Of a stretch of 35,540 nt of DNA, positions 2,269 through 35,295 are shown one piece after another. A model generated the notes under the pieces. The model did not search any database and was not told the DNA's origin. It was given only the letters and a program-made list of their open reading frames with translations. This stretch comes from a virus: the IMG/VR virus record IMGVR_UViG_3300027770_000141, positions 1 through 35,540 of that record. One strand, written 5' to 3'. Made by a program: the position numbers and the translations under genes. How positions within the stretch are numbered: the stretch's first letter is position 1; the number at the start of each line of letters is the position of its first letter.

Positions 2269-2541
2269 TCATCCATTAATAACTTTTCCATCCAGGATAA
2301 TCTTGCCACCAGTATGCACCAACAACCCATCGTTCATCAGAACTTGGAGCGGGGCGGAAGCTTCAAGCTTCTTGAAGTAATCCTCAACAGTGTAATACTT
2401 TACGAGCACGGCCATGAACTTTGCTTTCGTGACAGGAGAGCTCCTGTATTTGAACCGAGCCACAAAATTCGGTTGTCCGTTCAACTCATAAGACAATATG
2501 TTATTGCCAGCGTTAAAAAATTTGCTTCTTTCGAATTCCAT
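2269..2541 (-). CDS. small early protein of unknown function
   Basis: This is a 90-residue protein beginning MEFERSKFFNAGNNILSYEL. ATG 2541 is chosen because the frame upstream runs into a repeat and a promoter: TATAAT ends exactly 6 nt before this ATG, so the mRNA is predicted to start at the A of the start codon. The middle holds QPNFVARFKYRSSPVTKAKF and the C-terminus is LLVHTGGKIILDGKVING. It has no membrane segment and resembles no family I know. Two other short proteins behind the same promoter type (ends at 11293 and 11074) are similarly small and soluble, typical of host-takeover early genes. Confidence 0.7.
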   Translation of the reverse strand: MEFERSKFFNAGNNILSYELNGQPNFVARFKYRSSPVTKAKFMAVLVKYYTVEDYFKKLEASAPLQVLMNDGLLVHTGGKIILDGKVING

Positions 2542-2576
2542 AGAACCATTATAGCGTATTAGAACAGAGGTAGCAA
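2539..2576 (-). promoter_or_regulatory. early promoter P1, predicted leaderless start
   Basis: Minus strand TTGCTA (2571-2576), 17 bp, TATAAT (2548-2553), then GGTTCT and ATG. Six bases between the -10 box and ATG put the transcription start on the initiation codon itself. There is no ribosome-binding sequence. Confidence 0.8.
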
Positions 2577-2585
2577 CTTTTTTCG

Positions 2586-2651
2586 AAACTATATCTCCTT
2601 TGTTTTCAACGACTTGGTGCAAGTGATTGATTCATAAGAGAGATATAGTTT
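2586..2651 (+). repeat. structured repeat copy a, 12-bp inverted arms
   Basis: Arms AAACTATATCTC (2586-2597) and GAGATATAGTTT (2640-2651) are perfectly complementary. The interior holds a second imperfect stem centred on ACTTG-GTG-CAAGT. The copy at 2793-2858 has the same 66-nt length and differs at only two positions. Copy a lies just beyond the -35 box of promoter P1. Confidence 0.85.
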
Positions 2652-2792
2652 GATATCGCTGCAGGGGTTCCGGGAGACCAGGTATACCTATGGACCACCT
2701 GAATCCAGAGATCGCTTGTGTGCGTCCCTGGGACGATCCATGCAGGCAATAACACAGGTGTGGGTATAGATGGAACCTCCATGGATTCACCA
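2652..2792. other. intergenic core 1, gene-free and structured
   Basis: About 140 bp between two direct copies of the repeat, richer in G and C than the surroundings and without a credible gene. Possible pairings include TGAATCCA (2700-2707) with TGGATTCA (2782-2789), GGTTCC (2666-2671) with GGAACC (2772-2777), and the near-perfect palindrome CGTCCCTGGGACG (2723-2735). The first two pairings cross, so they are alternatives or a pseudoknot. It could be a small RNA, a control region or a replication site. The sequence alone does not decide. Confidence 0.4.
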
Positions 2793-2858
2793 AAACTATA
2801 TCTCCTTTGTTTTCAACGACTTGGTGCAAGTGATTGATTTATAAGGGAGATATAGTTT
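2793..2858 (+). repeat. structured repeat copy b, 13-bp inverted arms
   Basis: Arms AAACTATATCTCC (2793-2805) and GGAGATATAGTTT (2846-2858) are perfectly complementary. The copy is in direct orientation to copy a and almost identical to it. It ends 9 bp before the -35 box of promoter P2, mirroring the position of copy a relative to P1. Confidence 0.85.
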
Positions 2859-2867
2859 GCGAAATCC

Positions 2868-2907
2868 TTGCTACCTCGGTTCCAATAAGGTATAATGGTT
2901 CTATATG
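2868..2907 (+). promoter_or_regulatory. early promoter P2, predicted leaderless start
   Basis: TTGCTA (2868-2873), 17 bp, TATAAT (2891-2896), then GGTTCTAT and ATG at 2905. The start site would fall at 2902-2905, leaving 0-3 leader bases and no ribosome-binding sequence. The block AAGGTATAATGGTTCTAT is shared with several other promoters in the window. Confidence 0.82.
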
Positions 2908-3894
2908 AATGACACGAATAAGGTTAATCTGGTAAACGAGCTCGTTACGAAGTTTGGTACGACCGTCAATCGTGAACAATTAATGTCAACTGCGGCGAAG
3001 TATAAAGTGAATCCTGGATTCCTAACTGCGAATAGAATCAGTCGTGGTGTGTACGATATTTCTAATTGCGTGACATCGACTCCCACTCAGAAAACTGACA
3101 ATATTAAGGTTGAATTAACTGACGAAGAAATTCTTGATAGTCAACGTCGTCGCTTCCGGACGCTAGATCGTATGGCTTCTGGTGTTGTGGCCGGAAAGGT
3201 TCGCAGCATGATCGTCTCTGGTCCTGCTGGTATCGGTAAGACTTATACGATCGAAGGAATGTTAGAGACTGCTGAAGCTTCTAATCAGATTAAATACAAA
3301 AAGATCACTGGATTCGTGAAGGCGACTGGTCTCTTCAAGGCTCTCTGGGATAATCGCTCCGAGAATTCTGTTATTCTTATCGACGACGCTGATTCTGCCT
3401 TTGACGATGAAATTGCTCTTAATATTCTGAAGGCTGCTCTTGATTCGTCAAAGCGTCGTGTTATCTCTTGGGCTTCTGAGAAATTATTTATCGATGAGTT
3501 TGGTGAAGCGATTCCCAATACATTTGAATATCGTGGTTCGATGATTTTCATCACGAACAAGAATTTCGAAACTGCGATTTCTCAAGGAAAGAATCTTTCC
3601 CCGCACTTCCAAGCTCTTATCTCCCGTTCGTTTTATATTGATTTGAATATGAATTCGACTCGCGAATATCTTATTCGCATGGAAGATGTTCTGAAGAATA
3701 CTGATATGGCTTATACTCTTGGTTTGACCGAATCGGATACCACTTTCATCATGAAGTATATTCGGACAAATGCAAATCGGATGCGGGAATTATCGCTGCG
3801 TGCGCTTTTGAAGCTTGCCAAAATCCTGACTTTTGCTGATTCTCGTGCAGACTTTGAAGAAATCGCTGAGACTACTTGCCTTCGTCGCAAGTAG
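2905..3894 (+). CDS. AAA+ ATPase
   Basis: This 329-residue protein carries a central AAA+ module. Walker A is GPAGIGKT at residues 106-113, Walker B is VILIDDAD near 156-163, and a sensor-1-like strand MIFITNKN follows about 55 residues later. An arginine-rich C-terminal helical segment (NANRMRELSLRALLKLAKIL) fits an AAA+ lid. The first 60 residues form a small N-terminal region containing PGFLTANRISRGVYDIS. By family, such ATPases remodel protein or nucleic-acid complexes; the substrate here is unknown. The gene is predicted to be leaderless, and a 9-bp hairpin overlaps its stop. It begins the plus-strand early run. It is not the T4 clamp loader gp44 or helicase gp41 by its motifs. Confidence 0.85.
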   Translation: MNDTNKVNLVNELVTKFGTTVNREQLMSTAAKYKVNPGFLTANRISRGVYDISNCVTSTPTQKTDNIKVELTDEEILDSQRRRFRTLDRMASGVVAGKVRSMIVSGPAGIGKTYTIEGMLETAEASNQIKYKKITGFVKATGLFKALWDNRSENSVILIDDADSAFDDEIALNILKAALDSSKRRVISWASEKLFIDEFGEAIPNTFEYRGSMIFITNKNFETAISQGKNLSPHFQALISRSFYIDLNMNSTREYLIRMEDVLKNTDMAYTLGLTESDTTFIMKYIRTNANRMRELSLRALLKLAKILTFADSRADFEEIAETTCLRRK

Positions 3895-4966: not shown

Positions 4967-5470
4967 ATGTCAGTACTTGTTTTGAATTCTCAATATTTGC
5001 CCATACAAACGACTTCTGTGAAGAGAGCGGTCGGTCTGATCTATCGTGGTGTTGCAGTAACTGAAAAGTTCACTGAACAAGTATGGAAATCTATCTCTTC
5101 ACAGTTCGTCCTTCCTTCTGTAATTCGTTTGATTAATTTTCACAAATTACCTCCCAGGAATAATAAATTATCGAAGAAGAATATCTTGATTCGCGATAAA
5201 AATATTTGTCAATATTGTAAAGAGAAGTGCACTGATAGAACCCTCACGATTGATCATATTCTACCGAAATCAAGAGGCGGGACTTCTAAGTGGGAGAATC
5301 TTGTTACAGCATGCAGAAGATGTAATATAACGAAAGCAGATAGAACCCCAGAAGAAGCAGGAATGTTTTTACACACTAAACCAATTCGATTGAATATTTA
5401 CACATACACCACTATCCTGCGTAACAAATGCGAATCGTATCCAGATTGGTCGGAATTTTTGTATAATTGA
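4967..5470 (+). CDS. free-standing HNH endonuclease (COG1403/McrA-like)
   Basis: This 167-residue protein has an N-terminal region beginning MSVLVLNSQYLPIQTTSVKR and a C-terminal HNH nuclease. The zinc knuckle is CQYCKEKC, followed by LTIDHILPKSRGG with the catalytic His, the Asn of WENLVTACRRCN, and the second Cys pair. The layout, with VLNSQYLP then RAVGLIYRG then a PSVIRL segment before the HNH, is that of a widespread bacterial and phage HNH family. Some members are homing enzymes, others act in genome processing. It is not inserted in a recognisable gene. GGAGAG precedes ATG 4967, and its TGA overlaps the region of the next gene's ribosome site. Confidence 0.88.
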   Translation: MSVLVLNSQYLPIQTTSVKRAVGLIYRGVAVTEKFTEQVWKSISSQFVLPSVIRLINFHKLPPRNNKLSKKNILIRDKNICQYCKEKCTDRTLTIDHILPKSRGGTSKWENLVTACRRCNITKADRTPEEAGMFLHTKPIRLNIYTYTTILRNKCESYPDWSEFLYN

Positions 5471-6951: not shown

Positions 6952-7635
6952 ATGCCTAAAATTATTTATACAGACTCGAACAGATTCTATGTCTATGCAT
7001 TTCTGCGAAAAGATAACACCCCATATTATATTGGAAAAGGCCAGGGTAATAGAGCCTGGAGCAAGAGACAATTTCGTCCGGTGGACGATTCGAGAATTGT
7101 TATTCTCAAAGAGATACTTACAGAAACAGAAGCTTTCGATCTTGAAACAGAACTTATAGAATTTTATGGTCGAAAAGATAATGAGACGGGAATTCTCAGA
7201 AATCTAACAGATGGTGGAGAAGGAACTTCTGGCTACATAAATTCTGAAAAAACCAAAGCCAACATGTCTGCAGCTAAATCTGGTGTGAATAATCCTATGT
7301 TTGGAAAGAAGCCTCATAATTTTGGAAAGAAAGCTTCAGAAGAAACTATAGCCAACATGTCTGCAGCTCTATCTGGTGTGAATAATCCTATGTTTGGAAA
7401 GAAGCCTCATAATTTTGGAAAGAAAGCTTCAGAAGAAACTATAGCCAAACGTTCTGGTGAAAATCATTATAATTTTGGAAAGAAACGATCTCCAGAAATA
7501 ATAGCCGAAATATCTAAATCTAACACTGGAAAGAAACATTCACCAGAATCCAGAGCCAAAATGCGAGAATCATGGATTCTAAGAAAGATTTCTAATACTA
7601 TGACAGAAATAGAAAATATCTCTGTTGATGTTTAA
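6952..7635 (+). CDS. GIY-YIG homing endonuclease with NUMOD3 repeats
   Basis: This 227-residue protein has an N-terminal GIY-YIG nuclease: YVYAFLRKDNTPYYIGKGQG carries the two signature strands, followed by a conserved Arg region and the catalytic Glu of ETELIEFYG. From about residue 100 it consists of DNA-binding NUMOD3 motifs, each with the N-P-M-F-G-K-K or N-F-G-K-K pattern followed by a short helix. A 31-residue unit is duplicated in tandem. It is free-standing, lies between tRNA genes on the opposite strand and is driven by a late promoter, like the T4 Seg enzymes. AAGGAAG precedes ATG 6952. The flanking sequences repeat each other, indicating insertion or duplication of the tRNA-edge sequence. 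Confidence 0.93.
   Translation: MPKIIYTDSNRFYVYAFLRKDNTPYYIGKGQGNRAWSKRQFRPVDDSRIVILKEILTETEAFDLETELIEFYGRKDNETGILRNLTDGGEGTSGYINSEKTKANMSAAKSGVNNPMFGKKPHNFGKKASEETIANMSAALSGVNNPMFGKKPHNFGKKASEETIAKRSGENHYNFGKKRSPEIIAEISKSNTGKKHSPESRAKMRESWILRKISNTMTEIENISVDV
7258..7443 (+). repeat. 93-bp tandem duplication inside the GIY-YIG gene
   Basis: Units 7258-7350 and 7351-7443 are almost identical, differing at about two bases. Each encodes one 31-residue block containing NPMFGKKPHNFGKK. The near identity marks a recent expansion of the DNA-recognition region. Confidence 0.85.
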
Positions 7636-8531: not shown

Positions 8532-8568
8532 ATAGAACCATTATACCTTATCCATCCAGGAATAGCAA
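8529..8568 (-). promoter_or_regulatory. early promoter P3, predicted leaderless start
   Basis: Minus strand TTGCTA (8563-8568), 17 bp, TATAAT (8540-8545), GGTTCTAT, ATG. The spacer TTCCTGGATGGATAAGG is nearly identical to that of promoter P6. Confidence 0.82.
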
Positions 8569-8587
8569 GGATTTTTTGAAAAAAATA

Positions 8588-9181
8588 TCAACCGATAATT
8601 TTGTCCCCAGAGACCCGAGCGTTCCCATAGACCACTGCGTTCCCAGAGACCACTGCGTTCTCATAGATCCAGGCGTTCCCAGAGACCACTGCGTTCCCAG
8701 AGACCATTGCGTTCCCATAGACCATTGCGTTCTCATAGATCCAGGCGTTCCCAGAGACCATTGCGTTCCCAGAGACCATTGCGTACCCATAGACCGATGC
8801 GTTCCCAGAGACCACTGCGGACCCATAGACCCGAGAGTTCCCAGAGACCAATGTGTACCCATAGACCATTGCGTTCCTATAGACCCGAGCGTACCCAGAG
8901 ACCTGAGCGTTCTCAAAGACCATAGCGTTCTCAAAGACCATAGCGTTCCCGAAAACCATAGCGTTCCCGAAAACCCTGGCGTTCCCAGAGACCCGAGCGT
9001 ATCCATAGACCACTGCGTTCCCAGAGACCACTGCGTCTCCAGAGATTACTGCGTCAGGACCAACAAAAGCGGTCTCAGCGACGGTAGCAGTATTCTGGAC
9101 CCAGCCGCCTCCGTTAGGATGAACGTGCCACGTCTCAAGAGTAGCGTCAGGAAAAGCTGTCTTTAAATCTTCGAACTTCAT
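8588..9181 (-). CDS. left-handed beta-helix repeat protein (hexapeptide type)
   Basis: This 197-residue protein has a 30-residue N-terminal cap, MKFEDLKTAFPDATLETWHV, followed by NGGGWVQNTATV and about 24 imperfect hexapeptides of the form G-N-A-x-V-x. Such repeats fold into a left-handed parallel beta-helix, as in hexapeptide acyltransferases and the E. coli YdcK-like group. No catalytic His typical of the acyltransferases is obvious, so a binding or structural role is more likely. The DNA is an array of 18-nt repeats. A paralogue with the same cap lies at 10432-11028, where the helix is more diverged. The start sits 8 nt after a -10 box, predicting a leaderless early mRNA. Confidence 0.85.
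   Translation of the reverse strand: MKFEDLKTAFPDATLETWHVHPNGGGWVQNTATVAETAFVGPDAVISGDAVVSGNAVVYGYARVSGNARVFGNAMVFGNAMVFENAMVFENAQVSGYARVYRNAMVYGYTLVSGNSRVYGSAVVSGNASVYGYAMVSGNAMVSGNAWIYENAMVYGNAMVSGNAVVSGNAWIYENAVVSGNAVVYGNARVSGDKIIG
8590..9060. repeat. 18-nt repeat array encoding hexapeptides
   Basis: The array is built from 18-nt units related to GTTCCCAGAGACCACTGC and to GTTCCCATAGACCATTGC, read on the plus strand. It encodes the beta-helix rungs on the minus strand and keeps other frames open, which produces several spurious long frames here. Confidence 0.85.
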
Positions 9182-9218
9182 ATAGAACCATTATACCTTA
9201 GTGGAACATCAATAGCAA
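9179..9218 (-). promoter_or_regulatory. early promoter P4, predicted leaderless start
   Basis: Minus strand TTGCTA (9213-9218), 17 bp, TATAAT (9190-9195), GGTTCTAT, ATG 9181. Repeat copy c lies just upstream of the -35 box. Confidence 0.82.
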
Positions 9219-9230
9219 GGATTGCGAGAA

Positions 9231-9290
9231 AGAATATATCTCTTTTGTTTTCAACAGTATTCTGCAAGTGACTGATTCTTAAACAAAAAT
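9231..9290 (+). repeat. structured repeat copy c (diverged, single)
   Basis: Contains TCTTTTGTTTTCAACAGTAT and TCTGCAAGTGACTGATTCTT, matching the core of copies a, b, d and e in the same orientation. The right inverted arm is lost. No partner copy or core is present next to it. Confidence 0.65.
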
Positions 9291-9473
9291 ATTCATTAAC
9301 TTATTTTTGATAGTCGTCAACCAACTATTTTTCAAATCCTTAGATTTGATATTTTGAGATTGCCTATATTGTGATACAGTAGACGAACTGTATGCAGGAT
9401 GTTTAAGGTTACTCTCTCTGATATTAGAGATCGGAATGTAAGGAGTCGTTTTTAAATGTGATTCACGTTTCAT
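9279..9473 (-). CDS. possible 64-aa protein, doubtful
   Basis: An open frame from ATG 9473 begins MKRESHLKTTPYIPISNIRE and is polar and basic. It lies directly downstream of tRNA-Lys on the same strand, lacks a ribosome binding sequence and overlaps repeat copy c at its 3' end. Codon use does not argue strongly either way. It may be a real small gene or a chance frame in the gap between the tRNA block and the beta-helix gene. Confidence 0.35.
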   Translation of the reverse strand: MKRESHLKTTPYIPISNIRESNLKHPAYSSSTVSQYRQSQNIKSKDLKNSWLTTIKNKLMNIFV

Positions 9474-9765: not shown

Positions 9766-9852
9766 TGGCAGCAGACGGAAGGCTCGAAATCCTATGCTTT
9801 TCAACATACCCTGGTTTTCAAGACCAGTCGTCCTCCATGGACGGCACCTGCT
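9766..9852 (-). tRNA. tRNA-Ser(TGA)
   Basis: Acceptor AGCAGGT/GTCTGCT, anticodon stem CTGGT/ACCAG with loop CTTGAAA giving TGA, and a class II variable arm. Discriminator G is followed by an encoded CCA. The T-stem pairs poorly around loop TTCGAGC, so some decay or an unusual T-arm is possible. Confidence 0.82.
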
Positions 9853-9931
9853 GTAATACTTCAGTTATTCCTGTGGAACTTAACTATATTTATTCTTAAT
9901 AATCTAAGATTTGTTTTACATAAATAATTGT

Positions 9932-10431: not shown

Positions 10432-11028
10432 TTATTCGTTACCACTTTCGTTCCATGCGACCTTGGTATGCCCAGAGATCTGGGCCTTCCCAGAGACCAC
10501 TGCGGATCCATAGATCCGAGCGTTCTCAAAGATCTCAGCGTCTCCGCAGACCTGAGCATCCTCATAGACCCAAGAAGTCCCGGAGACTATAGCGTTATCA
10601 AAGACCCGAGCGTTATCCATGACCTGGGAACTCCCACAGACAAAAGAAATTCCATAAACCCAAGCAAATCCTGAAACCTGGGCGTTCCCCAAGACCCGAG
10701 ATCTCCCTTCGACCCGAGCGTCTCCAGAGACCCCAGCGTGCTCAAAGATATGAGCTTTCTCACCGACCTGAGCGTTCTCGCAGACCACAGCGGATTCGTA
10801 AACCCAGGCGTCGCCCCAGACCACAGCGTTCCCATAGACCCGAGCGTGGTCGAGGATCCGAGCTTCCTCATAGACCCGAGCGGATCCAGAGACGATAGCG
10901 TCAGGACCCACATAGGCACTATTAGTGACCGTAGCAGTATTCTGAACCCAGCCTCCTCCATTAGAATGAGGGTGCCACGTCTCAAGAGTAGCGTCAGGAA
11001 AAGTAGATTTCAAATCTTCGAATGTCAT
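10432..11028 (-). CDS. second left-handed beta-helix repeat protein
   Basis: This 198-residue paralogue of the protein at 8588-9181 shares the cap, which here begins MTFEDLKSTFPDATLETWHP and again leads into NGGGWVQNTATV. Roughly 26 hexapeptides follow, with patterns such as G-S-A-R-V-Y and G-D-A-W-V-Y, more varied than in the first copy. The fold is predicted to be a left-handed parallel beta-helix. The function is unknown; repeated cap and early promoter suggest both copies act in the same early process, perhaps binding a host target. The promoter has a perfect TTGACA -35 box. The start codon lies 8 nt after the -10 box, predicting a leaderless mRNA. Confidence 0.85.
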   Translation of the reverse strand: MTFEDLKSTFPDATLETWHPHSNGGGWVQNTATVTNSAYVGPDAIVSGSARVYEEARILDHARVYGNAVVWGDAWVYESAVVCENAQVGEKAHIFEHAGVSGDARVEGRSRVLGNAQVSGFAWVYGISFVCGSSQVMDNARVFDNAIVSGTSWVYEDAQVCGDAEIFENARIYGSAVVSGKAQISGHTKVAWNESGNE

Positions 11029-11065
11029 ATAGAACCATTATACCTTATTGTGATAGGAATGTCAA
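11026..11065 (-). promoter_or_regulatory. early promoter P5, perfect -35, predicted leaderless start
   Basis: Minus strand TTGACA (11060-11065), 17 bp, TATAAT (11037-11042), GGTTCTAT, ATG 11028. Both hexamers match the sigma-70 consensus. Confidence 0.85.
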
Positions 11066-11457: not shown

Positions 11458-11492
11458 AGAACCATTATACCTTTTCCATCCAGGAATAGCAA
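11455..11492 (-). promoter_or_regulatory. early promoter P6, predicted leaderless start
   Basis: Minus strand TTGCTA (11487-11492), 17 bp, TATAAT (11464-11469), GGTTCT, ATG 11457. The predicted start site is the A of the initiation codon. Confidence 0.82.
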
Positions 11493-11500
11493 GGAGAAGC

Positions 11501-11566
11501 CGAAAGAATATTTCCTTTGTTTTCAGTAGTTTAGTGCAAGTCACTGAAAACAAAGGAGATATAGTT
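11501..11566 (+). repeat. structured repeat copy d, 14-bp inverted arms
   Basis: CCTTTGTTTTCAGT (11514-11527) and ACTGAAAACAAAGG (11543-11556) are perfectly complementary, and GGAGATATAGTTTT follows. The central GTGCAAGT is shared with copies a and b. Compared with a and b, the arms change from CAA/TTG to CAG/CTG, a paired change that keeps the stem. Confidence 0.8.
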
Positions 11567-11700
11567 TTCCCAACATCAATCAAGCGGATGATCATTAGTA
11601 TCGATCCCCTCAGGATCCTCCAGGTGAGCTGCAACGAATCGGTGGGCTTTGGAGGTCCTAAGGTACGCTGGATGTCCAGAAATCGTCCCACACAGTGATC
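11567..11700. other. intergenic core 2, gene-free and structured
   Basis: About 130 bp between repeat copies d and e with no credible gene. AGGATCCTCCA (11612-11622) pairs with TGGAGGTCCT (11650-11659) as a 10-bp helix with one bulged T. The sequence is unrelated to core 1, but the arrangement (repeat, G/C-richer core, repeat, between divergent early promoters) is the same. Confidence 0.4.
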
Positions 11701-11770
11701 TCTCGAAAGAATATCTCCTTTGTTTTCAACAGTATTCTGCAAGTGATTGAAACTAAATAGAATATAGTTT
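11701..11770 (+). repeat. structured repeat copy e (diverged)
   Basis: Contains ATATCTCCTTTGTTTTCAAC and TCTGCAAGTGATTGA, then AATATAGTTTG. Its interior matches copy c, while its outer arms follow copies a and b with mismatches. It lies about 10 bp upstream of the -35 box of promoter P7. Confidence 0.75.
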
Positions 11771-11780
11771 GGGAAATTCC

Positions 11781-11818
11781 TTGCTATGACTGATTCAATA
11801 AGGTACAATGGTTCTATG
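11781..11818 (+). promoter_or_regulatory. early promoter P7
   Basis: TTGCTA (11781-11786), 17 bp, TACAAT (11804-11809), GGTTCT, ATG 11816. It matches the leaderless family except for C in the -10 box. The ATG opens only a 7-codon frame. Confidence 0.7.
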
Positions 11819-25341: not shown

Positions 25342-26184
25342 ATGGACTACCAGAAAATTTATAGAGATTTAATGGTTAAGGCAAAAAGACAAAATAGAGT
25401 GAAAACTAAAGAACATTATTTTGAAAAACATCATATTATACCAGAATGTTTATTTAAGATTAGAACGAGAAGTGGTCCTAAGGGATATGTTGATGGTGAT
25501 TCCGATGATCAAAATAATTTGGTTCTGTTGACACCCAGAGAGCATTTCATCGCTCATGTGTTATTATGTAAAATTTACAAAAACACTGAATATGCATTTA
25601 AAATTGGTTCTGCTTTATTATTCTTTTTCTCTAAAATTATAAATCCCATGCATCCTAGACTAAAATCATTCGCACCTAATAGCAAAAAATATGAATCATA
25701 TAGAATAATGGGGATTCAATCGATATCAAATGCCAACAAAGGATATATTAATGTTCGCGAACGTGATACTGGTAAATATATAGGTAGAATTTCTATAAAC
25801 GATCCGGATTACATATCAGGTAAATATGTCCATCATACTAAAGGTAGAAAAATATCTGATATTGAACGATCACACAGAAAACCACAAACAGGTAGTAATA
25901 ATAGTAATTACAAAGAAATGACCGAAGAGAGAAAATTGCGATTGTTTTCTCTAGTAGACCGTTGTTTGATTGGTAATCACTTGATATTAAAGTTACTACA
26001 ACGTGAAATGCAAACTGAATTTGTAGAATTTAAAAAAATTAGTAGAGTGTGGTTAGATAATAATTTTGGCTCTATTCAAAATTTTATAGACGAGTGCAAT
26101 AAAACCAATAATTCAACAATACAATATGCACCATATTTTCGTAATTCACAAAGTTATAAAAAACAGTTTTTAAGTAAGGATTAA
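25342..26184 (+). CDS. HNH homing endonuclease between the nrdA halves
   Basis: This 280-residue protein has an HNH core: YFEKHHIIPECLF with H30 and H31, DDQNNLVLLTPREHFIAHVL with Asn 58/59, H68 and H72, typical of phage homing endonucleases with the HHIIP and LTPREHFIAH motifs. A middle segment with NANKGYINVRERDTGKYIGR and a C-terminal helical region with RVWLDNNFGSIQNFIDECNK look like DNA-binding modules. It is a complete separate gene with its own ribosome site and late promoter, not fused to the intein. Its stop lies 1 nt before the start of the intein C-half. It presumably cuts an unbroken nrdA allele to spread this arrangement. Confidence 0.9.
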   Translation: MDYQKIYRDLMVKAKRQNRVKTKEHYFEKHHIIPECLFKIRTRSGPKGYVDGDSDDQNNLVLLTPREHFIAHVLLCKIYKNTEYAFKIGSALLFFFSKIINPMHPRLKSFAPNSKKYESYRIMGIQSISNANKGYINVRERDTGKYIGRISINDPDYISGKYVHHTKGRKISDIERSHRKPQTGSNNSNYKEMTEERKLRLFSLVDRCLIGNHLILKLLQREMQTEFVEFKKISRVWLDNNFGSIQNFIDECNKTNNSTIQYAPYFRNSQSYKKQFLSKD

Positions 26185-28959: not shown

Positions 28960-31900
28960 ATGACAACATTAAATTTCACCACAAGTACAATCAGCAATTC
29001 TTCATTATCTATCGCAGCACATAATTTAACTACTGGCGTCACTGTTAGATATCAGAATGGTACAGCAGGTTCGCCATACAATATCGGTTTAACAGATAAT
29101 TCAGAATACACTGTTGTTGTGAAGAATTCTTCTACAATTTATTTATCTTCTAATATAGGCAATATTAAATTCTTTCTCAGTTCGTTCGCTGACTTAATTA
29201 ATATTACAGAAAATACTATTTATGTAGACGCCCATGGATTTTCTACTGGTGATAGAGTTATATATTCTTCGGAAGGTGGAACTGATATTGGAGGATTAAC
29301 TTCCGGCCAAACTTATTATGTGATAAAAGTTGATGATAATAAAATTAAATTATCGAATAGTCCTTCAGAGGTAGCCATTGATCTGACGGGTTTGGGTGAA
29401 GGATATACACATTTACTATTTAAGTATATTGATCTCACACCATTTTCGCCAGATCAAACGCATTCATTAGAATACGATTTCAATATAATAGGATTTATAG
29501 GATCAACTGGAGTAGGTCCGACAGGACAATTCGGATCTACTGGATTCATTGGTGCGACAGGTCAGTTCGGATCAACAGGATTTATTGGTGCAACAGGTCA
29601 GTTCGGATCAACAGGATTTATTGGTGCGACAGGACAATTTGGATCAACTGGATTCATTGGTGCGACAGGAGTCTCTGGAACGGCTGGTGGAGATCTTTCA
29701 GGAACCTATCCAAATCCTACTGTAGTTAAAATAAATGGAACTGCAGTTACAACTAGCATCACTACTCCACTGGTAATTGGTGGTACTGCTGTATCTTCTA
29801 CTCTGACGTTACAGTCAACTTCTGGTGCTGGTACGAGTGATGCGATTATCTTTAAGACTGCCTCACAGACTGAGCGGATGCGAATCACTACTGCTGGTAA
29901 CGTAGGAATCGGAACGGCCAGTCCTGGTACTGCCCTCTCGGTTACTGGCACGATTACTGCTTCTACCTCTTTAGTCGTAAACAGCATCACCATTGGCAGG
30001 GGTACAGGAGCCGATATTAATAGCACATCAGTTGGTAATGGTGCCCTACTTAACAATACAACAGGAACTCAAAACACAGCAGTTGGCCGAGATGCATTAC
30101 GAAGCAATACCACCGGTTTCAATAATAACGCATTTGGTTACACGTCACTGTATAACAATACAATAGGTGTTGATAATACTGCCCATGGCGCACCTTCATT
30201 ATATGCAAATGTTGACGGGAATTATAATTCTGCATTGGGTGTGTATACACTTTATAAAAATATAAGTGGAAATGACAACCTTGCGGCTGGACATAGTGCT
30301 CTTTTTAGTAATTTAGTTGGAAGCACCAACACTGCGGTTGGTAAATATTCTCTATACTCAAATACCATAGGAAATAACAACACAGCAATTGGTGCTAGTT
30401 CTCTTTATGATCTTGGTGAAGTGACAGCCGCAGGTTCCTTTTTAATCGGTTACGATTATTATATCGTTACAATCGGAACCACAAATTTCACTCTGATCGG
30501 AGCAGCCTCGAATACTGTAGGAGAATTGTTCACGGCCAGTGGTGTTGGTACAGGAACTGGTACGGCATCTGCGAATAATATATCTTATAACAATACTGTA
30601 ATTGGATATAGCACCGGAGGAGGTATAGTCTCTGGAAATAATAATACTATTATTGGTGCTAATGTTACTGGACTTGCAGCAGATTTATCCAATAATATTA
30701 TTATCGCTGATGGAGATGGTAATCAGAGAATTAATATTTTATCAAACGGAAATGTGGGTATCGGAACTGCCAGTCCCGAATATAAATTAACCGTAACTGG
30801 TGGAGCACTGGTCGTGTCAGATTCGACCGGCGCGAACTCTGGACGAACGTTCTACTCCCTAAACACAACAACTACAGGATCGAATTACGCAGCCGTTCTC
30901 AATGCAGTAGGAGTCGGGGCAACCGCTAACACGGGAGTGTATGTTAACACTACCGGGGCATCATCTAATTATGGAATCACCATAGTCAATACCACGGCAG
31001 CCGCAAGTAATTATGCGATATACTCGTCCGCACCCGCTCAGAGCTACTTCGCTGGCAACATAGGCATCGGAACGACGAGTCCGAGTAGTTTATTACACCT
31101 TTCAAGTAACACAGGCACACATATCTTCATAGATAGTTTTGGCTCTGCTCCAGATCCGGGTATCATATTTCGTTCTGCAAATGGAACAGCGACGTCGCCA
31201 TCTGCTACACAATCCGGTAATGAATTGATGTGGGTTGGAGGTAGAGGGTATGGCACGACAGGATTTACTAATAATACTAGAGTGGCCGTTATTGGATATG
31301 CTTCGGAAAACTGGACTGATTCGGCGACGGGTTCATATTTGGTTTTTGCAACAACTGCTACTGGAGGGACATCTCGCACTGAAAAGGTAAGAATACAAGG
31401 CGACGGCAATGTGGGCATCGGAACGACGAGTCCTGGTGGAAAATTAGAAGTAGTGGGTGGTCGATCATTTTTTAACGCCGCAAGCGAGCCTTATGGTGTC
31501 GGATCAAGATTTATCTCCACTGGCGGAACTGTGTACTTTGGTGCTACTAACGGTACAGCAACACCTGACGCACAGATTTCTGCCTCTGGTGGTAGTGCGC
31601 TGATGACATTGCTGAATGGCGGAAATATAGGCATTGGTACTGCATCTCCTGGCACGAAACTGGAAGTATTTGGATCGATAACTGCAAGAGCAGCAACCAC
31701 TCAGGACTCAGTTATCCTGGCTGGAAGAGCAGGAGGAACTTCTAGTTTTGGAGTGACACTAACTCCTACTACATTAACTGCTTCTCGTACTGTTACCTTG
31801 GCCGATGGTAATACGACCTTAACAACAGGTACGATGGCTGTCACTAGTGGAACTCTTGCTCAATTTGCAGCTACTACTTCTGCTCAGTTGGCTGGTGTAA

Positions 31901-34900
31901 TCTCAGATGAGACAGGTACAGGGGCGTTGGTATTTGGTACGTCTCCTACGTTCACTACAAGCGCTGTAATCCCATTAGTCAACGGCGGGACTGCTGTATC
32001 TTCCACCCTGACATTGCAATCGACCAGCGGGGTTGGTACGAGTGATGCAATTGTCTTTCGGACTGCATCGCAGTCAGAAAGAATGCGGATTGATACATCT
32101 GGCAGAGTGGGCATCGGGACGGCGAGTCCGTCACGTAAATTAGACGTTATGTCCACAGACTCACAAGTCGGTGCATTTAGATACAATACAGCATTTACGG
32201 CTACTACAAATGAAATATTTACAATGCATTCTTTAACAAGTAGCGGAATGGGTGATGGATTCGGTGGACAATTTACATTTAGATCAGGTGATGTTGGGTA
32301 TGATGGATATCTAGCAGGACGTATTTACACGAAAAGAAATGGTAGTGATTCAAATCATGATATATATATGGAACCAAGTGGTTCATCTGGCATCGTTGTT
32401 AAATACACAGGCAACGTGGGCATTGGTACGACGACACCTGTAACAGTTCTTGAGGTAGTTGCGACATCAAATGGTGCAATTACATCTTCTACTTATTCCG
32501 CTGGATCGAATGCGGCAGTTTATTTTGGTCAATCTGCAAGAGGAACTATTTCTGCACTAACCGCAACACAAGCTGGCGACAGAACAATAGCCATGATCGG
32601 TCGAAGTTATGGTGGGACGACATTCGTAAATCATGGAGCGTTTAATTTATACTGTTACGAAAATCAAACAGAAGCTGCCAGAGGATCTTACATAACTTTC
32701 GATACAACAACTTCTGGTGCAACTGCTCGTGCTGAGAGAATGAGGATTGACCACAACGGCAACGTGGGCATCGGGACGGCGAGTCCTGGGGTGAAGTTGG
32801 AAGTTTCGGGAACTGTTTATAGTAATACAGGCAACTTTATCACAAACAGAGCGAACGCCGGTGCTAATACTTCTGGCAGTGGTGTTGAGTTAAGAATAGA
32901 CGGAACTACATACGCAGCTATTCGCCAGCCAGCAGCAGAAGTATTGGCATTTTACAGAGGCAACGGTGGAACAACTGAAACGATGCGTATCCACTCTGAT
33001 GGCAACGTGGGCATCGGAACGGCGAGTCCTGGGGCGAAATTAGATGTGGCTGGAACAACAGCTATTACAACAGGACTTAATTCTTCTACGCCATTTCAAG
33101 GACTTGTTACCATTGGTACGTCTGGAACTGGAGGAAGCCTTGTTGTCAGGACGGCTGGTTACGACAGCATTAATTCTACGGGATTAGGAGTCGATGGAAC
33201 TTTTTCTGTCAATAGTTCGGTAGTAAATTTAAAATCTTTTGGGGTTAAGGCTGGTTCTTTCAAATCTTCGCTTACCTTTTGGACTCAAACTTTCGGTACA
33301 GCCGATCCTTCAGAAAAGATGCGTATCGATGACGCTGGCAACGTGGGCATCGGAACGACTAGTCCTGGCAGCAACCTTGAAGTGTGGGGTTCAACTCCTA
33401 TTGTGAAAATTACACAAAATCCTGGAGTAGCTGGTAGCTCTTTGTTAAATATTTCGGCTGCTGGTGCTGCTGGGAATACTGCTGGTATCAGTCTTGCCGC
33501 TAGTTTTATCTATGCTGATACTGGTTCTGGGACGACTGTAAATTTTGGCGCTGACCGCCTTACTGCTAATGCCAAGATGGTTATAAATACAACCACCGGC
33601 AACGTGGGCATCGGAACGGCGAGTCCTGCGTACAAGCTACACGTTGTGGGCAACATTGCGCTTGGTCTGCCTCAGTCTGGAGACACCTCGGCCAATGCTT
33701 CGGGCGGACAGATCCTCTTTGGCGATGCGAGCAATTCTGCTTACGGAAACCGTGTGCGCTCCCATGATGATGGCTCATACGTGAGCTTACATTTCGACAA
33801 CAAAAGAGGCGGGACTTGGTACGACTCGGTTATTTTCAGAGGCGACGGCAACGTGGGCATCGGAACTGCGAGTCCTGGTGGAAAACTGGAAGTAGTGGGT
33901 GGTCGGTCTTTCTTTGCTGCCGCAAGCGAACCCTTTGGTGTGGGTGCCAGATATATCTCCACTGGCGGAGCCGTTTATTTTGGTGCCACCAACGGCACAG
34001 CAACACCTGATGTGCAAATTTCTGGCGCTGGCGGTGGTGCCCTGATGACATTGCTAACTGGCGGCAACGTGGGCATCGGAACGGCAACCGCTGCGACAAA
34101 TAAACTCCACATTTATGGTGGAAGTTTATCAGTGAATACAGCGGCGTTGGCGGAACATCATGCGATTGGCGGAATATCCATCCAACATGGTGGAGCCAGT
34201 TTCGCTAACCGTGCTATGCAAATAATGGCTAGTGCTGGTAACCCAAGTTATATCATACAATCATACGGTGCCGGTACAGCTTGGTACACATATGGCGTGA
34301 ATACCGACAATACTTTTCGCATTAATCCTGGCGCAGATACAATAACAGGGTCTGCATTTGTCATTAATAGTAGCGGCAACGTGGGCATCGGGACGGTGTT
34401 GCCATACTCGCAACTTACGATTATTCCTGGGACTACTCCAACTAGCGTTGCTACCGCCACACAGCTAGCCATCGGCGAATCGACGAATAATGCGTTGTAT
34501 AGACTTATTCTTGGATACGAGAATGAGGGTGGTTATAAAGGTGTTATAGATGCTCTGGGATATGGTTCCGGTACAACATTACTCATAAATCCAAGCGGCG
34601 GCAACGTGGGCATCGGCTTGACGAGTCCTGCGGCCAAAATCCATGTGGCGTCGAGCACATTAGCTACGGCTACGGTCAACTCTTTAGTCGTGGCTAGAGT
34701 AGAGAGGCCGTTCACTTCAGGCATCAAGTACTCCAACACGATGGACATATTGGTTGGAAGCTATGACACCTCAATAAACTCACAGACAAGAGTAGATTTT
34801 GCGCTCGGTAATGGTGCCACGAATACTCCAGAAATAACGGTGATGACTTTACTGGGCAGTGGCAACGTGCTGATCGGCTATACCGCATCAAACGGTGCGT

Positions 34901-35295
34901 ACAAGCTCCAGGTCAACAGTCAGATTTTTGCCACTAACGCCACCGTGGCAACATCTGATGGTCGCTACAAGCAGAACATTGCTCCCCTGCAATCTGGCCT
35001 GGATCTGATTGACCAGCTGAATCCAGTCACATTTGACTGGAAGCAACACGATGTACATGACTTTGAGCAGGGAACTCAGGTGGGATTTATCGCACAGCAA
35101 GTACAGCAAGTCCTGGCAGGAGTTGCTTACGCAGGATCTGTGGTCAAGCGCAACGAGTTCAAGCGAGCAGACGGGTCGATTGAAGAATTCCTGGGCATGG
35201 CAGATGCCAAGCTGATTCCCATATTGGTCCGGGCAATTCAGGAACTCAAGACTGAGATTGACCTGCTTAAATCCCAGATCTCTCATACGATATAA
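28960..35295 (+). CDS. giant tail fibre / receptor-binding protein with S74 chaperone domain
   Basis: This 2111-residue protein has several parts. Residues 1-180 hold two copies of a small domain with [18 protein letters not shown] and [16 protein letters not shown]. About 180-236 is a collagen-like stretch with four units of [12 protein letters not shown]. About 353-487 contains repeats like [20 protein letters not shown], as in trimeric adhesin heads. From 310 to 1990 there are sixteen G-N-V-G-I-G-T type repeats. The end, from about 1998 ([20 protein letters not shown]), is an S74 peptidase/intramolecular chaperone that trimerises and then cleaves itself off; S1999 and K2004 are the likely dyad. 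It should bind the host surface. Confidence 0.93.
29530..29670 (+). repeat. 36-nt collagen-like repeat
   Basis: Four near-identical 36-nt units encode [12 protein letters not shown], the last lacking the final codon. The Gly-X-Y pattern is collagen-like and probably forms a rigid trimeric shaft. High identity between units makes the copy number prone to change. Confidence 0.9.
31432..31626 (+). repeat. fibre internal duplication, copy 1
   Basis: Encodes the block from [20 protein letters not shown] through [12 protein letters not shown] to MTLLNGGN. A second copy lies at 33873-34067 with roughly four fifths of bases shared. Confidence 0.85.
33873..34067 (+). repeat. fibre internal duplication, copy 2
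   Basis: Encodes [20 protein letters not shown] through [12 protein letters not shown] to MTLLTGGN. Compared with copy 1 it is richer in G and C at third positions. Confidence 0.85.

Follow-up and report, generated by a model that had tools for sequence, protein, structure and literature searches.

A promoter-linked 66-bp near-palindrome, inversely related to -35 quality, at gene-exchange sites of uncultured T4-like phages

Introduction

The intergenic segment at positions 2586–2858 of a viral contig (IMG/VR record IMGVR_UViG_3300027770_000141, analysed over its full 35,540 nucleotides and referred to here as the window) carries two direct repeats around a G/C-richer core, placed between two divergent early promoters, raising the question of what function such a unit serves. 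An activator or repressor site, an early small RNA, an antitermination element and a replication origin were offered as possible roles in the original prediction, which was made from the sequence. The phage is assigned to the T4-like group by the families of its tail sheath stabilizer, primase, exonuclease and AAA ATPase. In T4-type phages, PeSL (promoter(early) stem-loop) cassettes combining a promoter with a stem-loop have been associated with gene shuffling, as cited in PMC4503421.

Architecture of the cassettes

The unit, termed cassette 1, has the order P-R-core-R-P, where P is an outward-facing sigma70-type promoter and R a 66-bp near-palindrome. Its two R copies are indeed direct 66-nt repeats with two differences, at position 48 (C/T) and position 54 (A/G), each featuring the anticipated inverted arms (AAACTATATCTC/GAGATATAGTTT; 12 bp, 13 bp in copy 2) and nested hairpin ACTTG-GTG-CAAGT, and the core at 2652–2792 is G/C-richer as described (141 bp; 53.9% G+C compared with 37.8% for the window). 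The repeats do lie between two promoters, but the -35 elements, originally placed within about 20 bp, are closer, each exactly 9 bp from the R tip. Cassette 1 is real, but the window contains a second full cassette as well as one half-cassette and one remnant, with five R copies overall; that R is a repeat family extending beyond cassette 1 had been overlooked. The features are as follows:

2269–2541, minus strand: 90-aa early gene (phrog_22119, function not assigned), driven by the left promoter; ATG 6 nt past the -10, probably leaderless
2548–2576, minus strand: left promoter TTGCTA-17-TATAAT (-35 at 2576–2571, -10 at 2553–2548)
2586–2651: R copy 1, 66-bp near-palindrome, tip 9 bp from the left -35
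2652–2792: core A, 141 bp, 54% G+C, a member of an optional core family; orientation relative to R opposite to that in L014, L016 and L021
2793–2858: R copy 2, tip 9 bp from the right -35
2868–2896, plus strand: right promoter TTGCTA-17-TATAAT (-35 at 2868–2873, -10 at 2891–2896), followed by GGTTCTAT and ATG
2905–3894, plus strand: AAA ATPase early gene (phrog_1250), probably leaderless
8540–8590, minus strand: promoter TTGCTA/TATAAT (8540–8568) with only a remnant R tip; contig L012 has the same promoter with an intact R
9190–9218, minus strand: promoter of the half-cassette (9190–9297), serving the beta-solenoid gene at 8588–9181
9231–9297: single R of the half-cassette, inner arm decayed
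11037–11065, minus strand: R-less promoter of the same family with consensus TTGACA, preceding the paralogous gene at 10432–11028
11464–11492, minus strand: left promoter of cassette 2, the second full cassette (11464–11809)
11503–11567: first R of cassette 2, a long version with arms of about 24 bp
11568–11705: core B of cassette 2
11706–11771: second R of cassette 2
11781–11809, plus strand: right promoter of cassette 2, TTGCTA/TACAAT

The paralogous genes at 8588–9181 and 10432–11028 are of the YdcK beta-solenoid type (PF18836) with 18-nt repeats, and this family is the commonest cargo following R-linked promoters in related contigs. Further possible sources of rearrangement in the window include a gene with 93-nt tandem repeats beside tRNA genes (6952–7635), an HNH endonuclease (4967–5470) and a homing endonuclease (25342–26184). 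A minus-strand segment at ~9766–9853 resembles tRNA-Ser (anticodon TGA, long variable arm) and is unreported by ARAGORN and at the Rfam gathering score; a 2111-aa ORF (28960–35295) with many repeats and a collagen-like G-rich stretch is probably a tail fibre.

Distribution and anatomy of the repeat

R was recovered in 38 viral-contig stretches by exact and degenerate pattern searches, the same patterns giving four matches in 257 Gb of cellular genomes, as many as chance would produce, and an iterated R profile produced 85 matches, ~39 of them distinct, across the fetched viral stretches and the window. Given this recurrence in the window and in dozens of viral contigs, the repeats of cassette 1 are not a product of chance. 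Within the phage isolate collection no match was found for the first 20 kb of the window or for the cassette, and a probe of R plus promoter gave matches to isolate phages only at E about 4. Two contigs (L022 and L023) start inside or beside R copies, so that the cassettes are probably points where assembly of these phages stops.

Copy number also bears on a role in replication. Some phage origins have repeats near early promoters, a general resemblance that cassette 1 shares; set against this are the 11 R copies in a single 76.7-kb contig and the five in the window, each tracking an early promoter, and the absence of the core from an orthologous site (see below), which together make the proposed replication origin scarcely credible.

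As a sequence, R is an imperfect palindrome of 60–67 bp, with arms of ~24 bp in some copies and elsewhere of up to 31 bp reaching a 3-nt loop, with internal mismatches; in cassette 1 the outer 12–13 bp pair, together with a central stem. The folding energy of R copy 1 is about -23 kcal/mol for both strands (z -5.9 and -6.7), a value that none of 200 shuffles matched. Across 32 copies, pairing at the dyad is found in 76% of cells, compared with 40–52% when the dyad is slid, and doubly changed dyad cells number 29 as opposed to 4–11, with changes on both sides in 11 pairs. Shuffle controls equal most of these pairing measures and RNAalifold returns no consensus structure over the 32 copies, for which reasons R is taken to be a dyad at the DNA level, an RNA hairpin being unproven. 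In cassette 1 the centre of R also contains a perfect IHF-like match (AATCAATCACTTG), which is not general across R and is kept as an idea.

Promoter spacing and -35 quality

R is tied to promoters. Just outside the tip of nearly every copy lies a promoter, in either orientation, in a ratio of one R per promoter, with two R at divergent promoters and one at tandem sites, where R can follow a stop codon directly and precede the next promoter. The spacing is fixed: among 25 linkers from R tip to -35, delimited by hand, 12 measure 9 bp and 10 measure 10 bp (22/25 combined), with two of 20 bp and one of 0 bp; the 20-bp linkers both add one helical turn, but are orthologues of each other. Linker sequences are diverse and unrelated despite this constant length. 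The A/T-rich R tip (ATATTCTTT/ATATAGTTT) is positioned at ~-54 to -46, in phase with the -35, where an UP element would be expected. Identical promoters precede different genes, and one gene family carries different cassettes.

Start codons fall 5–9 nt past the -10 in most early genes of the window (2541, 2905, 8531, 9181, 11028, 11460 and 11903) and of related contigs, and in nearly all R-associated cases, from which the early mRNAs of this T4-like phage are probably leaderless; the search used to compare R-linked with R-less promoters itself requires this start spacing, whereas a separate listing of R-associated promoters does not.

The presence of R and the quality of the -35 are inversely related. 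Among TTG-type promoters with a start codon close behind, TTGAC- occurs in 1/29 R-linked and 18/26 R-less promoters (p=2e-7), the R-linked promoters typically carrying the degenerate TTGCTA or TTGCTT. R abuts the -35 in the single R-linked exception; a second exception, outside the 1/29 count, is the left promoter of L012, which combines TTGACA with a weaker TACAAT -10, and a few R-less promoters also carry TTGCTT or TTGCTA. Common ancestry could have given R-linked promoters one -35 and may inflate the p-value, an explanation against which the diversity of the linkers and a natural allele pair both appear to count. This pair, from a near-identical phage group, comprises R with TTGCTT (L031 and L033) and no R with TTGACA (L032 and L034) at a single gene whose -10 and start do not differ between the alleles, and offers the cleaner evidence.

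These sites also permit the reading of R as mainly a bidirectional terminator or insulator hairpin to be weighed, the module then being a promoter-terminator composite of the kind published for PeSLs, which the title of Comeau 2014, as cited in PMC4503421, describes as promoter-terminator motifs. R can form a strong RNA hairpin, and tandem R copies directly after a stop codon and ahead of the following promoter occupy the place expected of a terminator, which counts against an upstream-element reading. No R in the window was picked up as terminator-like by a scan, however, and the bases past the G/C part of the stem (ATATTCTT or ATATAGTT) contain no T run. With the lack of an RNAalifold consensus, the presence of two R at divergent promoters that have no incoming gene to terminate, and an exact spacing and -35 relation that termination leaves unexplained, a principal role as terminator is judged unlikely.

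The core segment

Divergent promoter pairs can hold a core of ~125–170 bp. Cores A to D show significant similarity when compared in one orientation (B–D, B–C, C–D and A–D; 0/300 shuffles in at least one representative pair each), the likeness of A to B being weaker and one A–C pair scoring in the opposite orientation also. L010 and L020, 96% identical over 8.7 kb, share the same divergent gene pair, separated by a 17-bp gap without a core in the former and by core D in the latter; L011, from the contig of L008, is also without a core, and in L071-type contigs R adjoins R. Core A is inverted relative to R in the window, L012 and L019 compared with L014, L016 and L021, and has different flanking genes in the window, L012, L014 and L016. 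Being absent at an ortholog, present in both orientations and variably flanked, the core is unlikely to regulate a particular gene, and we infer that it would serve as optional filler or as a recombination substrate and not as a regulator. Related phages with the promoters but lacking repeats or core had been named in the original prediction as evidence against it, and L010, which keeps the promoters and R, is such a case for the core, not for the repeats.

Three further interpretations were discarded: a coding function for the core is argued against by 2-nt indels between close relatives, a likeness between core B and a conserved part of 23S rRNA does not extend to relatives, and an apparent inversion of the whole cassette in L014 and L016 was wrong, the cassette being colinear and the flanking genes different.

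Folding bears on a further possibility, in which R-core-R is an early small RNA or other structured RNA whose two R copies pair with each other on either side of the core. Shuffled versions of the 286-nt unit fold much less well than the real one, whichever strand is taken (z -7.2 and -8.5), although two near-identical palindromes alone yield such z-scores, and the core A minus strand has weak support, with a consensus energy z of -2.9 over five close relatives only. Core B has no conserved fold (consensus energy z -0.1 and +0.9), conserved pairing with covariation was not found in the core, and Rfam searches over the window returned tRNAs only, with nothing at the cassette. Both promoters, moreover, point away from the unit and their genes start 5–9 nt past the -10, and the core is dispensable and invertible as above, so that a structured RNA or early small RNA is very improbable, and an antitermination element is unlikely.

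Gene exchange at the repeats

Gains and losses of modules cluster at R, promoter and core sequence. Of 12 distinct large indels that separate near-identical contigs, about 7 fall no more than 60 bp from R, in a small set with duplicates grouped by hand and a rough background, giving an enrichment p of 5e-6 to 5e-5 as a rough figure that takes R-flanking DNA as 7–10% of sequence. The window and L019, the latter an allele resting on one contig and containing repeats (R and a 161-bp duplication) able to mislead assembly, are 98.4–98.7% identical except for a 335-bp promoter-gene insert in L019, flanked by the 161-bp direct duplication, which takes in R and 91 bp of core. Recombination between these duplicates would lose the insert and release a small circle, and the geometry of the two alleles fits the loop-out of small circles attributed to PeSLs. 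An 87-aa ORF with no assigned function (L019 1982–2245), followed by a truncated core, is exclusive to the L019 allele of cassette 1.

Between G001 and L016, genes are inserted or replaced at R, promoter and start sites, and a 775-bp difference at the promoter and start separates L008, L010 and L013 from L020. The L014 allele is backed by independent contigs, G001 and G002, which differ very little across 16 kb. No claim is made that the window phage and G001 have exchanged DNA horizontally, almost no other genes being common to both; L024, a 100%-identical sister contig of the window, derives from the same sample as G001, and the shared sample together with the near-absence of other shared genes suggests that the window phage and G001 may be separate parts of one genome.

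Such exchange raises the alternative that the unit primarily serves recombination or mobility, for example as a site that is cut or that extrudes a cruciform, with promoters associated by incidental hitch-hiking. The mapping of gene and core gain and loss to R, promoter and core sequence, the L019 insert between direct duplicates and the occurrence of cores in both orientations relative to R are all as this would have it. Hitch-hiking, however, predicts neither a 9–10 bp spacing nor the -35 relation, and no target-site duplication or adjoining recombinase gene was noticed on inspection, which was not systematic; the alternative is regarded as quite improbable.

A proposed role for the repeat

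R is best read as a DNA-level upstream element of the promoters of early leaderless genes, carried in shuffling modules, a proposal resting on sequence comparison to which a probability of roughly 0.55 is assigned. The unit would consist of two promoter modules back to back, each with a weak -35 and an R at constant upstream distance. R would work as double-stranded DNA, its tip (ATATTCTTT/ATATAGTTT) offering the RNA polymerase alpha subunit an UP-like site and/or its dyad binding an activator, and could thereby replace part of the -35 contact, permitting a weak -35; homologous recombination from one copy to another may move the module, the mechanism that has been proposed for PeSL cassettes. 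Among the roles first put forward, an activator or repressor site is the one that fits the repeats, in view of the fixed -35 spacing, the inverse -35 quality and the single R per promoter. An UP element would account for the tip only, and not for the whole 66-bp dyad or its conserved GCAAGT centre. A wider formulation, in which a mobile 66-bp dyad is a portable enhancer substituting for the -35, loss of R is balanced by restoration of TTGACA, and the exchangeable module both sets promoter strength and provides a crossover site for leaderless early genes of uncultured T4-like phages, is more tentative and falls somewhat short of an even chance.

Comparison with known systems

PeSL cassettes of phages RB49 and phi1 were reportedly treated by Arbiol in 2010 and Comeau in 2014; the definition used here follows citing papers and the RB49 sequence. 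The likeness to PeSLs so defined includes a repeated intergenic cassette of sigma70-type early promoter and stem-loop at many sites per genome, occurrence in T4-like phage contigs at sites of gene swapping (the ~7/12 large indels), and closely spaced copies that could loop out a small circle. Read directly, the RB49 sequence places a short G/C-rich hairpin within the promoter itself, either between the -35 and the -10 or surrounding the -10, with promoters that are mostly TTGACA and an SD leader. In the cassettes described here, by contrast, a 60–67-bp A/T-rich near-palindrome lies wholly upstream, 9–10 bp before a weak -35 and without overlapping the promoter, the mRNAs look leaderless, and divergent pairs can hold a ~125–170 bp core. 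Termination activity has been claimed for PeSLs but is not indicated here by the sequence (no T run, no scan match, no consensus fold). With its stem-loop upstream of the promoter and not inside it, the module appears to work like a PeSL as a distinct variant, not a strict member.

T4 early promoters have the arrangement UP/-35/TGn/-10, with contacts between alpha-CTD and the UP element (PMC2988021). As with UP elements in strong early promoters transcribed by the host polymerase, A/T-rich sequence is found here at ~-40 to -60. T4 early promoters, however, combine UP with an excellent -35, whereas the upstream element here belongs to a long dyad and accompanies a poor one. The haloarchaeal virus HGTV-1 has a TATA-box and inverted-repeat motif before many ORFs, with suggested roles in transcription regulation and genome shuffling (PMC3950731); the pairing of conserved promoter and inverted repeat is alike, by description and not by sequence, and the promoter is of a different, archaeal type.

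Significance

If the proposed role is correct, T4-like phages would have more than one way of building shuffling promoter cassettes, with a stem-loop whose part here seems to be in initiation instead of termination. The natural alleles at one gene, R with a weak -35 and no R with a consensus -35, constitute a ready-made experiment on whether an upstream dyad can replace the -35 in phage early promoters, and the sequences provide a marker for following early-gene exchange among uncultured phages.
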